Shown here: piece by piece, positions 1 to 5,303 of the stretch
Layout: every line of letters begins with the position of its first letter
Numbering within the stretch: the first letter of the stretch is position 1
NCBI GenBank assembly: GCA_030040475.1
Contig: JASHTQ010000051.1
Location: forward strand, 1 to 5,547
DNA: 5,547 nucleotides
Direction of reading: 5' to 3'
Source: Streptosporangiaceae bacterium
GTDB lineage: Bacteria > Actinomycetota > Actinomycetes > Streptosporangiales > Streptosporangiaceae
Program-made: the position numbers and the translations under genes
The notes under the pieces: generated by a model
The model's input: the letters and a program-made list of their open reading frames with translations, nothing else
Told to the model about the DNA's origin: nothing
Database searches by the model: none

Positions 1-39
1 GCCCTGGTTAATCGCAGCCCTGGTTAATCGCAGCCCTGG
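1..39. repeat. 16-bp tandem repeat across the marP stop codon
   Basis: The unit GCCCTGGTTAATCGCA occurs at 1-16 and 17-32, followed by a partial third copy GCCCTGG at 33-39. On the minus strand the copy at 17-32 contains the last two codons (Cys, Asp) and the TAA stop of the protease gene. The copy at 1-16 lies after the stop, so it does not change the protein. The array may continue to the left of the window. It looks like a recent slippage or duplication event, or the start of a longer array; a function is not visible. Confidence 0.9.
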
Positions 40-1220
40 GTCGAGACGGGCGTGGTGTCCTGCTCGCCGGCCCTGGCGTCCGCGGACACCTCGGACGCGG
101 TCAGCGCGAAGCCGGTGTCGGAGACGCCGACCGCCGCGGCGAACACCACCCCGTCGACGGTGCCGTCGGGGGAAAGCAGCGGGCCGCCCGAGTTGCCCGA
201 TTCGACATTCGCCCTGATCTCGTAGATCTGGCGGGTCACCGTGCTCGTCTGGTAGATGTTCGGGCCCTGCGCGGTCTGCACGCCGCCGATCCTCGCCGAC
301 ACGGTAACCAGGCTCGCGGCGTCCAGCGGGTACCCGGCGACCACCGCGTCGTCGCCCGGATGGGCCTGGCTCGCGAACGCCAGCGGCGCCAGGTCGAGCC
401 CGGGCACGTACAGGACGGCCACGTCCACCTGCGGGTCGTAGAACACGACCGTGGCCCGGAGCTGCTGGCCCGTCGTGGTGGTGACCGTCTGGCTCTGCGT
501 CACCCCGGCCACCACGTGGGCGTTGGTGAGGACGTGCTGCGGCGAGATGACGAATCCGGAGCCCTCGATGGAACGCGAGCAGCTGGGCGCGATCCCCTGC
601 ACCTTCACCACCCGGCTGCGGGCGGCGAGGAATCCCGGGCTGTAGAGCACTGCCGGGTCCGGGGCCGGGATGGCCAGGATGCGCTCCTCGCCGATCCCGC
701 TGAACACCTCGGCGTAGGTGCTGTTGCTCGTCAGCAGCCTGCGGAAGTCCGAGAAGGCCGTCTTGGCGGGCGAGGGCATGAACCTGTCCAGGGTCTGCAG
801 CACCAGCGAGTTGTTCACCTGCTGGTCCACCACCGGGAAGGGGGACTGGCTGAGCACCGACCCGACGACCCACGCGATCAGCAGCACCGAGACGATGCTG
901 ACCGCGGAACCGCCGATCGAGTCGAGCGTCGTCGCCGAGCGCCAGGTCACCGTCGAGCGCATCGCCGCGCCGATCGAGGAGGCAACGAACTGCCCGATCA
1001 CGGCGAAGCTCACCAGCAAGACCACGGCCACGACGTCCTGCTGGGTCTGACCGCCGACCAGCGCCCTGGCGATGCTCGGGCCGAATTCCGCGCCGAGCAC
1101 CGCGCCGCCGACGAACCCGAAGAAGCTGAGCACGCCGACGATGAAGCCCTGCCGGTACCCCGAGACCGCGAACGCGGCGACCACCACTATCAAGATGAGG
1201 TCGAGCACATCACCGCGCAC
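24..1220 (-). CDS. marP: MarP-type membrane-anchored periplasmic serine protease
   Basis: The 398-residue protein joins a CvpA-like membrane domain (four hydrophobic segments near 5-22, 25-46, 60-82 and 102-124) to a chymotrypsin-fold protease (about 200-385). The triad is visible as H235 in TNAHV, D266 in DPQVDVAVL and S344 in SGNSGGP. C214 and C397 match the disulfide pair of M. tuberculosis MarP (Rv3671c), whose length is nearly identical. In mycobacteria MarP is needed for acid and oxidative stress resistance and cleaves the peptidoglycan hydrolase RipA; the same role here is inferred. The start is GTG at 1220 with GAGG only 2 bases upstream. GTG at 1208 (codon 5) is 14 bases from that GAGG and is an alternative. 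The gene follows the Nudix gene by 69 bases and is probably cotranscribed. Its final codons lie in a 16-bp tandem repeat. Family assignment is firm; the substrate is unknown. Confidence 0.94.
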   Translation of the reverse strand: MRGDVLDLILIVVVAAFAVSGYRQGFIVGVLSFFGFVGGAVLGAEFGPSIARALVGGQTQQDVVAVVLLVSFAVIGQFVASSIGAAMRSTVTWRSATTLDSIGGSAVSIVSVLLIAWVVGSVLSQSPFPVVDQQVNNSLVLQTLDRFMPSPAKTAFSDFRRLLTSNSTYAEVFSGIGEERILAIPAPDPAVLYSPGFLAARSRVVKVQGIAPSCSRSIEGSGFVISPQHVLTNAHVVAGVTQSQTVTTTTGQQLRATVVFYDPQVDVAVLYVPGLDLAPLAFASQAHPGDDAVVAGYPLDAASLVTVSARIGGVQTAQGPNIYQTSTVTRQIYEIRANVESGNSGGPLLSPDGTVDGVVFAAAVGVSDTGFALTASEVSADARAGEQDTTPVSTQGCD

Positions 1221-1289: not shown

Positions 1290-1916
1290 TCACAGGTCGG
1301 TGACGACGGCAGCGTCCCAGGGGCGCTCCCAGCCGCCCGCGGCGAGCAGGCGGTCGACGATGCTGGCCGTGAAGCCCCAGATCAGCATTCCGCGGACGCG
1401 GAACGCGGGCGATAGGCGCCCGGCGGGCCCGCGCACGGTCAGCCGTGCGGCCGGGTCTGCCAGCTCCGCGACCGCGACTCGCTCCACCGCCGCCACCTCA
1501 CGCGGGTCGACGGGGGCCACCGCGCAGGGCTCCCGCCACCACGCCAGCACGGGGAGGACACGGAACCCGGTCCGCGCGATGAACAGCTCCGGCAGCGTCC
1601 CCACCACGTCGACGCCGCCCGGATCGAGGCCGACTTCCTCGGCGGCCTCGCGCAGCGCCGCCGCGACCGGCCCGGAGTCCGTGGCGTCGATCGCGCCGCC
1701 GGGAAAGGCAGGCTGGCCCGCGTGCAGCCGCAATCCCTCGCTGCGCTGGATCAGGAGCAGGTCGGGACCGTCCGCGCCCTGGGCGAACAGCACCAGCACG
1801 GCCGACGGCCTGCCTCCGCTGGCGGGCGGCAGGACCATCGGGTCTACCTCCATCCGGGCTGCCTCCTGCGCCAGCTCGCGCAACCAGACGGGGACGGGCT
1901 CGCCACCCGGGGTCAC
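1290..1916 (-). CDS. Nudix hydrolase, CoA diphosphatase family (NudL/YeaB-like)
   Basis: The 208-residue cytoplasmic protein belongs to the Nudix branch that cleaves coenzyme A and its derivatives to 3'-phospho-ADP and 4'-phosphopantetheine. The CoA-family signature R-S-x3-R-x3-G-x3-F-P-G-G is complete: R58-S59, R63, G67, F71-P-G-G74. The Nudix helix follows as REAAEEVGL at 89-97, with E90, E93 and E94 as metal ligands. The segment between the GG pair and R89 is one residue longer than the textbook Nudix box, and D80 stands near the usual first Glu, as in the CoA family. The GTG start at 1916 shares GTGA with the nth stop, so translation is probably coupled to nth. The homologue in M. tuberculosis (Rv3672c) lies in the same cluster. 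Substrate is inferred from the signature; related Nudix substrates cannot be excluded. Confidence 0.9.
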
Positions 1917-2620
1917 GAGAACGGGCCGGGTTTGACGAGCTTCGCCGCGATCTGCGGATCGGTAGGGCCTTCACCGTAGGACGGGCACAGCCGGGCCAGC
2001 CCGCAGGCGCCGCAGGCGGGGCGGCGGGCGTGGCAGACCCGGCGGCCGTGCCAGATCATCCGCTGGGAGAGATCCGTCCAGTCGCGGCGCGGGATCAGCG
2101 CGGCCACCTCGGCCTCGACCTTCTCCGGATCCGTGCTCGTGGTCCAGCCGAACCTGCGGGCCAGCCGCCCGAAGTGCGTGTCGACGGTGATACCGGGGAT
2201 GCCGAAGGCGTTCCCGAGCACCACGTTCGCGGTCTTCCTGCCGACGCCAGGCAGCGTGACCAGGTCGCGAAGCCGCGGCGGCACCTCGCCGCCGAACCGC
2301 TCGCAGAGCGCCCGCCCGAGGCCGATGAGGCTGTTCGTCTTCGCGTGGTAGAAACCGGTCGACTGGATGATCTTCTCCAGCTCGTCGCGGTCGGCCGCCG
2401 CGTAGTCCGCCGCGGTCGGGTACCTGGAGAACAGGATCGGCGTGACCATGTTCACCCGCTTGTCCGTGGTCTGCGCGGACAGGATGGTCGCGACCAGGAG
2501 CTCGAGCGGCGTGCGGAAGTTCAGCTCGGTGTGCGCGTCGGGATAGAGCAGGGCCAGCTCCCTGTCGATCCTGCGGGCGCGCCTGACCAGCGCGGTATGC
2601 GAAGCGGGCTCAGCGGTCAC
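1913..2620 (-). CDS. nth: Endonuclease III (DNA glycosylase/AP lyase)
   Basis: This 235-residue base-excision repair enzyme removes oxidised pyrimidines and nicks at abasic sites by beta-elimination. The helix-hairpin-helix motif LPGVGRKTA (123-131) contains the catalytic lysine K129. The catalytic aspartate is D147 in TVDTH. The 4Fe-4S loop C196-x6-C203-x2-C206-x5-C212 has exact family spacing. The N-terminal [13 protein letters not shown] segment (41-53) is also typical. The protein is full length, slightly longer than the E. coli enzyme (211 residues) because of extra residues at the N-terminus and after the cluster. The start is GTG at 2620. No Shine-Dalgarno sequence is present, but a TANNNT hexamer lies 6 bases upstream. 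The stop overlaps the Nudix start by 4 bases, and the sigma factor gene ends 39 bases upstream. Identification is very secure. Confidence 0.97.
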
Positions 2621-2659: not shown

Positions 2660-4372
2660 TTAGATGCTGAGCCGCAGCCGCACTTCGAACGACGAGGGCG
2701 CGTTCGGCGCCACCGACGGCGCGGGGGACGCGGACAGCGTGCCCCTGGCGGGAGACGGCGATGCGGACGGGGACGGGGACGGGGACACCGGGACCTTGGG
2801 CGGCGGCGTCGAGGAGGTCGCCGAAGGCGACGCGGACGGCGATCCGGACTTCGGCGCGGACGGGGAGGGGGAAGCAGCCGGGTGGGCCGGCCGGGAGGAC
2901 CAGCTCACGCCGATCGCCTGATCCGCGGCCCCGACCGGATCGATGTACACGGCTCCGGTTCCGCCGGTGCCCATGACCCGGCGCACCGTCACCACCAGCG
3001 TGATGCTCTGCCGTGACCGGAGCGTTCCCCGGTAGCGGCTCAGCGTCAGCTGCTTCGACGTGGTGGTCGCCGACCAGTCCACCGGCCCGCCGAGGACGGT
3101 CACCGAGATCGACCCCATGCTGCCCCCGCCGAGCGCCAGGTGCCCCGACGTCACGGTCAGGTTGCCGGTGCCCGCAGGCCCCGCCCCCGAGGGGCCTGCG
3201 GGCGCCGGCGCCGATGACCACACCGGAGTCGGCCTCGAGCCCCTCGCGGGTCCCGCATAGCCGCCCGGCTTCCCGGTCGCGCCGGGTGCCGGGGACGTCT
3301 TGATGATGATGGGGACGCTGACCGCCGGCCCGCCGCCTGGCGGCCGCGGCGTCGCGCCCCCCGACGGTGACGCCGCCACGACGGCCGAGCCCCGGCCCGC
3401 GCTGTTGATGTCCGACCCGCCGAGCAGGAAGGCGGTCGTCATCAGCGCCGCCACCGCGATTCCCGCCGCTACCGGGAGAAACGCTCCGGTCATGACCGCG
3501 CCGACCCGCTGATCGTCGGCGGGCCGCTGCGCGGCACGCGGCGAGCGCGGTGCGGCCGGCGCCTGCCGCGCCGCCGTCACCGCGGTCACGGGGAATCCCG
3601 ATCCGGCAAGCACGGGCGCCCTGGTCACGGCGAATTCCCGGTAACCGGACAGCCTGGGATCGGCGAAGAAGCCGAGCACCCCGGCCCGCGCTCCGGCCGG
3701 CAGCGTCGGGTCGGGAAGCAGGCCGAAGACGCGTTCCGCGGAGACGCTGCGGGGCAGGTTCGGCCCGCACACCGGGCAGCTCGCGGCGTGCTGCAGCACG
3801 CGTTCCCGCAGCTCGGGCGTTACGGTGCCGGTCCAGCCCTGCATTACCCCGGCGCGGTCAGGACAGTCGTGGCTGCCCGAGGCGATCAGGATCTCGGTGC
3901 CGAGCGCCTGCTGCAGGCTTTGCCTGGCCCGGCTCAGCAGCGCCCGGACGTCCTCGGGCGGCAGGCCGAGCACCAGGCTCAGGTCGACCTGGTGCCTGCA
4001 GGCCAGGTCGAGGGCCTCGCGCTCGGCGGGCGCCAGGCTCAGCGTCGCGTTCCACGCCACCAGCCTCGCCTCGGCATCGGCCTGGCTCGGCCTGGCCGGC
4101 GGCTCGTCGGCCCGCGCCACCGGACGGCGGCGCCTGCATTCCGCCCTGGCCAGCGAGTAAAGCCACGGCCCGAGCAATTCGGCGTCGGCTAGCCGCGCTA
4201 TGTTCGCGGTAGCCACGCTGAGCGTGTCGCGGAGCGCCATCTGGGCGATTTCGCGACTCCTCAGCATGCCCCAGCAATACCGGAAGAGCCGTTCGCCGTA
4301 AACGTCGAAAAGATCGGCCAGCGCCCCTGCTGATCTCGCTCGCAAGGCGTTGACGAGCTGCTGGTCATGCAT
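2660..4372 (-). CDS. ECF-type sigma factor fused to zinc motif, membrane helix and outer beta domain
   Basis: From ATG 4372 the product is 570 residues. Region sigma2 lies at about 6-83 (LVNALRARSAGALADLF ... RYCW ... WLYSLARAECRRRR) and the sigma4 helix-turn-helix at 111-158. Next comes a zinc-binding anti-sigma-like motif, H195-x3-C199-x2-C202, with H168 and C170 upstream as possible extra ligands. One transmembrane helix (about 293-318) leads to a Pro/Gly-rich linker (325-401), a BACON/Ig-like beta domain (402-493, with VDWSATTTSKQLTLS and a closing IGVSWS) and a Ser/Pro tail (494-570). This implies a membrane-tethered transcription factor that carries its own inhibitory module and an outer sensor or wall-contacting part; how it is released is unknown. 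TTG at 4417 would add 15 residues. ATG 4372 is preferred because family N-termini begin just before LVNALRAR and because TACCTT lies 7 bases upstream. Actinobacterial ECF groups with C-terminal extensions are known. Confidence 0.85.
   Translation of the reverse strand: MHDQQLVNALRARSAGALADLFDVYGERLFRYCWGMLRSREIAQMALRDTLSVATANIARLADAELLGPWLYSLARAECRRRRPVARADEPPARPSQADAEARLVAWNATLSLAPAEREALDLACRHQVDLSLVLGLPPEDVRALLSRARQSLQQALGTEILIASGSHDCPDRAGVMQGWTGTVTPELRERVLQHAASCPVCGPNLPRSVSAERVFGLLPDPTLPAGARAGVLGFFADPRLSGYREFAVTRAPVLAGSGFPVTAVTAARQAPAAPRSPRAAQRPADDQRVGAVMTGAFLPVAAGIAVAALMTTAFLLGGSDINSAGRGSAVVAASPSGGATPRPPGGGPAVSVPIIIKTSPAPGATGKPGGYAGPARGSRPTPVWSSAPAPAGPSGAGPAGTGNLTVTSGHLALGGGSMGSISVTVLGGPVDWSATTTSKQLTLSRYRGTLRSRQSITLVVTVRRVMGTGGTGAVYIDPVGAADQAIGVSWSSRPAHPAASPSPSAPKSGSPSASPSATSSTPPPKVPVSPSPSPSASPSPARGTLSASPAPSVAPNAPSSFEVRLRLSI
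2765..2786. repeat. GGACGG hexanucleotide repeat in sigma gene tail
   Basis: Three GGACGG units plus GGAC on the plus strand encode part of the alternating Ser-Pro tail (about residues 529-536) of the sigma factor protein. Gain or loss of units would stay in frame and change the length of the extracytoplasmic stalk. Confidence 0.7.
3164..3209. repeat. Long inverted repeat (19-bp arms) inside the sigma gene
   Basis: Left arm 3164-3182 and right arm 3191-3209 are complementary at 18 of 19 positions, including 13 perfect base pairs next to the 8-base loop (GCCCGCAGGCCCC and GGGGCCTGCGGGC). The single mismatch is T/G on the plus strand, which would be a wobble pair in a plus-strand RNA and an A/C mismatch in the sense mRNA. 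It lies in the codons for the Ala/Pro/Gly linker (residues about 388-403) between the membrane helix and the beta domain. No T-run follows, so a terminator is unlikely. Confidence 0.8.
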
Positions 4373-4379
4373 GCCGAAA

Positions 4380-4385
4380 AAGGTA
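4380..4385 (-). promoter_or_regulatory. Putative -10 hexamer for leaderless sigma gene transcript
   Basis: Minus-strand TACCTT matches TANNNT and is followed by 7 bases and the ATG at 4372. There is no Shine-Dalgarno sequence before that ATG, so a leaderless transcript would explain the start. The -35 region is not recognisable. Confidence 0.35.
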
Positions 4386-4420
4386 GAGCAAACGCGTGCG
4401 CGCAGCCACCTATTCAATAA

Positions 4421-4448
4421 AACGAGCGCTTAAACTAGCACTATTTCC
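4421..4448 (-). promoter_or_regulatory. ECF-type promoter upstream of the sigma gene
   Basis: Minus-strand GGAAAT (4443-4448) and CGTT (4421-4424) are separated by 18 bases. This resembles the bipartite promoters of ECF sigma factors (GGAAC or GGGAAT, then CGTT or GTT, with spacing near 16-19). Transcription would begin near 4410-4416, leaving about 40 bases before the ATG at 4372. ECF genes are commonly autoregulated, so this is a reasonable target of the encoded factor itself. The region is much richer in A/T than the flanking genes. Confidence 0.45.
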
Positions 4449-4544: not shown

Positions 4545-5303
4545 TTATGCCTGATGCACGGCGCAGCTGGACGGATCGTAGGGCCGGACGGTCAGCCGGG
4601 CGGCGAACGAGCCGGCACCGGGATCGGCCGGGTTGACGTGCCGGCCAAGTAGCACGGTGGCAACGCGGCGTGCGCCGGCCAGTTTGAGGGACGCGGCGGC
4701 GGACTGCGCGCTGGCGCCGGAGACCCAGCTGTCGTCGAGCAGCAGGACGCTGGCTCCGGCTGCCGGGTGGCCGGCGACGAACCGGCCGACCCGGAGGTCG
4801 CGGCCCTGCTCGCCGGGGCGGATGGCCAGCGGGATCAGCGGCAGCCGCAGGTACGGCGAAACCAGCCTGAGCAGCGGGTGCGGACCCGGCCGGCCGGTCC
4901 CGGTCGGCACCACGGCGAGCAGGTCGGGTGATGACATGCCCGCGCACCGCCATACGCAGCCGCCGTGATCGTTGAGGAAGGCGAGCAGCAGGGCGCCGAG
5001 CACCGCCTGGGCGGCGGCGCTCGGCGCCGCCCAGGACTTGTAGCGCCACAGCGCGGCCGCGTAGTCCGTTCCCTTCACCGCGTAGCAGATGGGCACGACG
5101 GCGTCGGCGAGCAGACCGGGGCCGGCGCTCGCGGCGGCACCGCGCCGGTGCAGCCCGCACTGATAACACCGGGCGTACCCGGGTCGCACCGGCCCGCGGC
5201 ACACGACGCAGCTTGCCTGGCCGGCCGGCGGCGCGACCGGGTACAGCGGCATCGCCGACCGCAGCCGGAGCCGCAACCCATCCCACGCTGTGGACGCGGA
5301 CAT
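4545..5303 (-). CDS. ComF-like phosphoribosyltransferase domain protein with N-terminal zinc ribbon
   Basis: The 252-residue protein has a zinc ribbon C32-x2-C35-x10-C46-x2-C49 near its N-terminus. A ComF-like segment follows at about 71-110 (ICYAVKGTDYAAALWRYKSW). The PRPP-binding loop is VLLLDDSWVSGAS at 186-198, with acidic pair D190-D191. Canonical family members have DDVxTTGAT; here the TTG part is VSG, so catalysis is uncertain. ComF proteins act in DNA uptake in competent bacteria, and actinobacterial members mostly lack a known function. ATG 5303 has no Shine-Dalgarno sequence, but TAGCAT lies 6 bases upstream, which suggests a leaderless mRNA. ATG 5252 would give a protein 17 residues shorter that keeps all motifs. 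The sigma factor gene follows in the same orientation after 172 bases containing a hairpin and promoter elements. The domain call is firm and the function is open. Confidence 0.83.
   Translation of the reverse strand: MSASTAWDGLRLRLRSAMPLYPVAPPAGQASCVVCRGPVRPGYARCYQCGLHRRGAAASAGPGLLADAVVPICYAVKGTDYAAALWRYKSWAAPSAAAQAVLGALLLAFLNDHGGCVWRCAGMSSPDLLAVVPTGTGRPGPHPLLRLVSPYLRLPLIPLAIRPGEQGRDLRVGRFVAGHPAAGASVLLLDDSWVSGASAQSAAASLKLAGARRVATVLLGRHVNPADPGAGSFAARLTVRPYDPSSCAVHQA

Follow-up and report, generated by a model that had tools for sequence, protein, structure and literature searches.

A membrane-tethered ECF sigma/anti-sigma fusion protein with an altered region 2.2 from a Streptosporangiaceae bacterium

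Introduction

Blocking of regions 2.1 and 2.2 of a sigma factor by an anti-sigma factor, and release of the sigma factor by regulated proteolysis, are well established. Here we analyse a protein of 570 amino acids that combines both partners in one membrane-tethered polypeptide and is encoded at 2660..4372 on the minus strand of a 5,547-nucleotide stretch of DNA from a Streptosporangiaceae bacterium (contig JASHTQ010000051.1 of assembly GCA_030040475.1; this whole stretch is referred to as the window). The closest described systems are the groups ECF48, ECF52 and ECF53 of extracytoplasmic function (ECF) sigma factors, in which one protein joins the sigma factor to a zinc anti-sigma domain and transmembrane (TM) helices and proteolytic activation is expected (PMC8999054). 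SCO4117, an ECF52 member, affects differentiation and antibiotics in Streptomyces coelicolor (PMC5826349). A preliminary description of the window, made from its sequence, had taken the mode of signal sensing and release in C-terminally extended ECF factors to be poorly described; the printed accounts of the three groups and the in vivo work on SCO4117 go further than it assumed. Within these sources, membrane-tethered actinobacterial sensors that unite sigma and anti-sigma factor in one polypeptide are named in classifications, and SCO4117 is the only one that we found described as tested.

The features that characterize ECF48, ECF52 and ECF53, namely sigma2 and sigma4, a zinc motif behind sigma4 and one or two TM helices, are all found in the window protein, which likewise shares their long Pro-rich extension and actinobacterial origin. 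ECF52 carries the carbohydrate module smart00776 on the outside, whereas the window protein has an Ig/BACON-like domain instead, Pro-rich stretches being present. By its description, IutY (ECF243) of Pseudomonas putida is also comparable, as it joins a sigma factor and a membrane anti-sigma factor in one protein with proteolytic release, but it belongs to an iron-starvation cell-surface signalling system (PMC8999054). Acidic residues of region 2.2 contact the beta' clamp of RNA polymerase, and ECF43 factors, which lack the acidic DAED motif, are switched on by phosphorylation of a threonine in the motif or the linker (PMC8999054, PMC13147305, PMC8103513). Helix 4 of class I anti-sigma factors covers the same surface as this clamp contact (PMC7406223).

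Domain architecture and relatives

The window protein, delineated from its open reading frame, its relatives and a structure model, is arranged in the order sigma2, sigma4, zinc anti-sigma domain, one TM helix, stalk, Ig/BACON-like domain and Ser/Pro tail, and the earlier observation of sigma2, sigma4, a zinc anti-sigma-type motif, a TM helix and an outer domain in one polypeptide is thereby confirmed. A chance reading frame in high-GC DNA was ruled out by the homologues, the codon GC content and the structure model. Fusion of sigma factor, anti-sigma domain, TM helix and extension is a known architecture; what is new is the changed sigma core. The order of the domains can be read directly from the sequences or the model, as can the conserved zinc site, the TM helix and the disappearance of the acidic region 2.2 motif among the relatives. 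The best explanation, to which we give an even chance of being right, is that of a membrane-tethered one-polypeptide sigma/anti-sigma regulator of the ECF48/52/53 type, whose contact between sigma2 and RNA polymerase has been rebuilt.

At least 95 other proteins matched the fusion protein with E <= 0.001 in a protein search, giving 96 rows with the window included among the 7992 scored candidates listed. A first scan of genome contigs gave no loci, and a second yielded 72, mostly from Nonomuraea, Streptosporangium, Microbispora, Planotetraspora and Sphaerisporangium. The wide set of 166 rows comprises the 96 proteins and 70 locus proteins; removal of 13 outgroup rows leaves the 153 rows of the window family, the window counted in, which is mainly from Streptosporangiales. 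As controls, 69 sigma-70 region 2 domains from two related genomes were used (30 locus hits and 39 taken down the hit list). A canonical related family was found with rows P0093-P0095, and its 118 new proteins are those top-ranked by the canonical profile, so that counts within it lean towards canonical residues. Residue numbers in region 2.2 are those of the window protein, in which the canonical DAED aligns with positions 42-45.

Altered region 2.2 of the sigma2 domain

The sigma2-like domain (residues 1-80; 4133..4372, minus strand) forms helices at residues 2-11, 17-37, 40-60 and 64-80 in an AlphaFold2 model. SigW of Bacillus subtilis is its best match both by fold and by profile (E 2.7e-8). 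No sigma model was found on the fusion protein in a Pfam scan of the window proteins, and the ECF model TIGR02937 scored below its cut-off. Within this domain, the residues IAQMALRD (42-49; 4226..4249, minus strand) occupy region 2.2 in place of the canonical DAED..QE contact to the beta' clamp, as judged from the SigW alignment and from control and family counts. The profile alignment, which is gapless over this region, sets EAEDIAQE of SigW against iAqvAlrD of the window family; thus, the acidic DAED/DxxDxxQE signature of core-binding sigma-70 family members is absent from the window protein.

This replacement is a property of nearly the whole window family. Positions 42-45 are free of acidic residues in 152 of its 153 rows, position 48, canonically Gln, is Arg in 150, and Asp stands at position 49 in every row. 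In contrast, the position corresponding to Met45 is acidic in all 69 control domains (Asp in 65, Glu in 4), and that of Arg48 is filled by Gln (50), Ala (13), Ser (4) or Gly (2) and never by Arg. The top-ranked members of the canonical related family retain Asp45, Gln48 and the four zinc ligands described below without exception (118/118), together with the hydropathy peak of a TM helix in 116 of 118, whereas the window family does not keep Asp45 and Gln48; SCO4117 enters this comparison by its description and not by its region 2.2. Replacement of the DAED acids by uncharged residues is shared with ECF43 (EcfP, EcfK). However, the ECF43 motif contains a Thr as phospho-acceptor and a kinase is encoded next door; in the window family the acceptor is mostly absent, no kinase was found among the proteins scanned, and the anti-sigma domain is fused. 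Reports of DAED-less members of ECF48/52/53-type fusions were not found in the open-licence literature, which omits the main classification papers.

In a tree of 49 rows, rows with the altered region 2.2 form one clade of 35 with support of 99/98, three of which carry a residue other than Arg at position 48; two further altered rows, L060 and P0096, fall outside this clade. Because the altered rows form one well-supported clade, the loss of the acids is old, shared and maintained. Of the 153 window-family rows, 145 have an acidic residue at position 41 or 40, and this, together with the conserved replacement residues, argues against plain decay of region 2.2. Trp70-Leu71-Tyr72 and Arg76 are conserved among the aligned relatives as well. 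Membrane-tethered distant relatives from Actinomadura and Sphaerisporangium (L060, L067-L070 and L072) carry yet other residues in region 2.2, such as ALSAAVGA in L068. Loss of the acidic motif in such fusions may therefore be a repeated event, the alignment being less sure for these six rows.

The sigma4-like domain (residues 100-165; 3878..4075, minus strand) was assigned from the model, with a short helix at 131-135, and is three residues shorter between the helices of its helix-turn-helix (HTH) than in other relatives. The shorter form occurs in 81 of the 84 rows P0001-P0084, which make up the window subclade, and in none of the 61 genome-locus rows.

The altered sigma core raises the question of whether the protein is still a sigma factor. 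According to one alternative, which we regard as unlikely though worth taking seriously, the fold has been kept and core binding lost, leaving a membrane-bound regulator that could, for example, titrate an anti-sigma factor by sigma mimicry or serve as the DNA- or protein-binding output of a sensor. Sigma mimicry is a known mode, exemplified by PhyR (PMC8999054), and the loss of the acids against their universal presence in the controls and the canonical related family, the exchange of Gln48 for Arg, the shortened HTH in the window clade and the lack of a Pfam sigma model would all fit such a role. Nevertheless, the altered motif is itself strongly conserved at Arg48 and Asp49, as are Trp70-Leu71-Tyr72 and Arg76, an acid is retained one residue off, and the presence of a fused anti-sigma domain whose ligands are conserved is easiest to understand if a sigma factor remains to be inhibited.

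Zinc anti-sigma domain and membrane helix

The zinc anti-sigma domain was recognized by its motif and conservation at residues 166-205 (3758..3877, minus strand), with Cys170, His195, Cys199 and Cys202 as ligands. All 46 aligned proteins have these four residues, and so do 164 of the 166 rows of the wide set, while zf-HC2 matched the fusion protein only below the Pfam cut-off. Between zinc site and membrane lie helices whose assignment rests on conservation and the model (residues 206-270; 3563..3757, minus strand), with Pro261 invariant, and these helices are possibly the region of anti-sigma helix 4. A profile alignment to RsiW, the partner of SigW, reaches into them but is not significant (E 0.17); SigW and RsiW are two proteins, whereas here there is one. 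The TM helix (residues about 290-318; 3419..3505, minus strand) shows a hydropathy peak of 2.12 at residues 299-317, in line with the TM helix of the initial reading. A peak of at least 1.6 follows the zinc site in 156 of the 166 rows, and the ten misses include several short fragments.

The zinc site also invites comparison with RsrA, which has the same CHCC order and needs its first Cys for redox sensing; the spacing is Cys-x24-His-x3-Cys-x2-Cys in the window protein, whereas the first gap is x25 in RsrA (PMC4960319). A cytoplasmic redox switch would thus be conceivable, in which oxidation expels the zinc and frees the sigma factor and the outer domain is a mere anchor, and the retention of the ligands alongside a variable outer part would suit it. 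We consider such a switch improbable, since the zinc of RsiW is described as having a structural role and the motif occurs in about 48% of those class I anti-sigma factors that are membrane-bound (PMC7406223), the conserved TM helix is hard to explain by purely cytoplasmic sensing, and the cell-wall genes in the neighbourhood argue for an envelope signal.

Proposed mechanism

We return to the preferred explanation, a tethered sigma/anti-sigma regulator with a rebuilt polymerase contact. In the resting state, the zinc domain would fold back on sigma2, and on sigma4, together with the helices that follow it, and block core binding in cis. Upon a signal from the cell wall, or when the outer domain is engaged, the extracytoplasmic stem would become exposed to a site-1 protease, for which MarP is the best candidate in the window and might make the first cut; a site-2 protease would subsequently cut within the membrane, and the cytoplasmic fragment would be trimmed. 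The freed sigma factor may bind core by a non-canonical surface, with Arg48, Asp49 and the conserved acid at position 41 in place of the Asp and Gln contacts, and would probably drive its own promoter. In Corynebacterium glutamicum, MarP is the site-1 protease that cuts RsdA and thereby frees sigmaD (PMC11175481), which makes the window MarP a reasonable candidate for the same task on the fusion protein. Like that system, the window encodes MarP nearby; however, SigD and RsdA are separate proteins, and MarP is a candidate for the fusion protein by gene linkage.

Several observations weigh against this explanation. The known beta'-clamp-binding residues are absent in the window family and sigma4 is shortened in the window subclade, so that sigma activity may be gone, and a separate model of the anti-sigma piece gave no match to any of the 22 chains compared. 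No experiments on the window family were found. The genomic link to marP is confined to the window and L001, a locus from a metagenome-assembled genome (MAG), that is, one of 50 relatives' loci, and in L001 a HAD hydrolase gene on the opposite strand separates the sigma gene from nth. In addition, the block upstream of the start codon scores poorly in the window (-6.0 for the core, against a median of 28.7, and -45.8 in full), because its -35-like part lies one base nearer to the ATG and agrees with the consensus at no more than 8 of 11 defined bases. A wider regulon is not visible from the upstream motif in six genomes.

The preliminary description had proposed a one-component signalling protein. 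Of this, the fusion stands, whereas the signalling role is called into question by the replacement of the clamp-contacting residues in nearly the whole window family. A bolder reading, to which we give somewhat less than an even chance, is that the family gave up the near-universal acidic clamp contact, mostly without gaining a phospho-acceptor, and has either adopted a second mode of core docking (by Arg48, Asp49 and an acid shifted to position 41) or become a membrane sensor that does not act on polymerase and keeps its fused inhibitor. The window family offers a test of the need for the DAED motif in binding of sigma factors to core polymerase, as well as of whether a fused sigma factor can be a substrate of MarP as RsdA is, and it is unsafe to call such proteins working sigma factors from their architecture alone.

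Improbable, and dropped here as the acceptor is mostly absent in the window family, is an ECF43-like activation, in which the negative charge that region 2.2 lacks is supplied by a Ser/Thr kinase, in addition to control by the anti-sigma domain: ECF43 does without DAED and SCO4117 is reported to be phosphorylated (PMC5826349), Ser or Thr occurs somewhere in positions 42-45 in 42 of the 153 window-family rows and Thr50 in 134, but Ser/Thr stands at positions 44/45 in only 11 rows and in neither in 142, the window protein itself has Ile-Ala-Gln-Met at 42-45, Thr50 is no clear substitute, being about as common (102/118) in the canonical related family with its intact Asp45, and scans of the five window proteins and of seven neighbour proteins from L003 and L042 showed no Ser/Thr kinase, a distant kinase being possible.

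Extracytoplasmic part

Behind the TM helix follow three segments, all on the minus strand: a Gly/Pro/Ala-rich stalk (residues 326-402; 3167..3397), recognized by its composition and modelled with low confidence, an Ig/BACON-like beta domain (residues 403-493; 2894..3166), assigned by structure model and fold match, and a Ser/Pro-rich C-terminal tail (residues 494-570; 2663..2893), with 29% Ser and 26% Pro over residues 495-570. Pfam BACON_2 matched the outer domain with E 0.06, below its cut-off, and the score of the curated BACON family (PF19190) was not reached. A BACON-type profile built in this work matched 83 of the 166 rows, and among the 61 genome-locus family rows only L001 and L004. 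The outer beta domain noted at first is thus not general in the window family. Three tails that were read (P0077, P0083 and P0090) are Pro-rich and have no outer beta domain. No carbohydrate module was found in a Pfam scan of the window protein at E <= 1, a scan of which the SMART model smart00776 is not part.

Upstream block

The 44 bases before the ATG were compared across 63 family loci, L001 included, revealing GAAnnGGTRGARC at -44..-32, AGTTAC at -27..-22 and TTAC..TC at -14..-7. GAAnnGGTRGA is present in 49 of the 63 loci, and TACnnT lies exactly at -13..-8 in 58. The window has a -10-like TACCTT at -13..-8 (4380..4385, minus strand), identified from the consensus of the family loci, and a -35-like GAATAGGTGG (4406..4415, minus strand), the displaced element mentioned above. 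In L001, GAA-nn-GGTAGAG is found at the same distance and the -10-like element reads TACGTT, provided that the ATG at 7986 is the start (the alternative being 7956). The block is possibly a leaderless autoregulated promoter or an operator. The position of the -10-like element would suit a leaderless transcript. The gene seems to have carried its promoter along when it moved, as would be expected for an autoregulated ECF gene. By eye, the block abutting the start codon (4373-4415 of the window) also contains repeated GGTA/TTACC-like half-sites. The block is partly common to the window and L001 despite a genomic context different from that of the other loci.

Coding function of the block was rejected, as L006 and L008 have an in-frame TAA, seen by eye. 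With a scoring matrix built from the 63 loci, L001 itself included, L001 reaches a core score of 23.4, above the best non-own site (20.9). Poor own-site matches also occur among the loci, with full scores down to -31.6. Scanning six genomes for the motif gave nine matches, five of them at the sigma gene (four exact, one with one mismatch) and none in the genome of L006; the other four lie elsewhere in two genomes. As a regulon motif the block was discarded, since each of these off-gene matches has one mismatch and a backward control pattern gave 37 matches against the nine. A terminator-like hairpin with a T-rich tail (4425..4442, minus strand) is located in the gap of 50% GC between the comF-like and sigma genes, upstream of the sigma promoter region; it derives from a consensus scan alone, which found 2 terminators against 0.8 expected in the region.

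Neighbouring genes

On the minus strand of the window, the order is comF-like, sigma, nth, NUDIX and marP. The gene nth (1913..2620, minus strand; TIGR01083, 252.7 bits, cut-off 211.7) encodes endonuclease III and starts 39 bases past the sigma stop. Its stop is overlapped by four bases by a NUDIX hydrolase gene (1290..1916, minus strand; Pfam NUDIX, 52.7 bits, cut-off 21.1), whose product is CoA-pyrophosphatase-like, with the CoA pyrophosphatase model at 91.8 bits, below its cut-off of 134. The MarP family membrane serine protease (24..1220, minus strand) was identified by NCBIfam MarP with 424 bits (cut-off 250). A short tandem repeat, GCCCTGGTTAATCGCA, of about 2.5 copies by eye, lies at and behind the marP stop in positions 1-40, and could be an effect of the assembly edge. 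L001 is the sole other locus with the window context, and it keeps the same gene order. A single conserved sigma-nth-NUDIX-marP operon was rejected, as none of the loci examined apart from L001 repeats the order, and there the HAD hydrolase gene intervenes.

The surroundings of the sigma gene in the relatives were counted in those family loci that extend far enough, 50 of them by at least 7.5 kb downstream and 61 by at least 4 kb upstream. An NlpC/P60 endopeptidase is encoded within 5 kb downstream on the same strand in 47 of the 50, and ppa and dacB occur downstream in 49 each. Upstream, an ABC-F gene is found in 52 of 61 loci, and 59 encode a small protein that looks secreted when judged by eye. 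In Nonomuraea-type loci the NlpC/P60 protein is a RipA/RipC-like peptidoglycan endopeptidase, for example at 9507-10628 of L003. No Rfam families were found in the window. The comF-like phosphoribosyltransferase gene (4545..5303, minus strand), for which no family model scored above cut-off, was named by eye, its product having pairs of Cys residues close to the N-terminus as well as a VLLLDDSWVSGAS motif.
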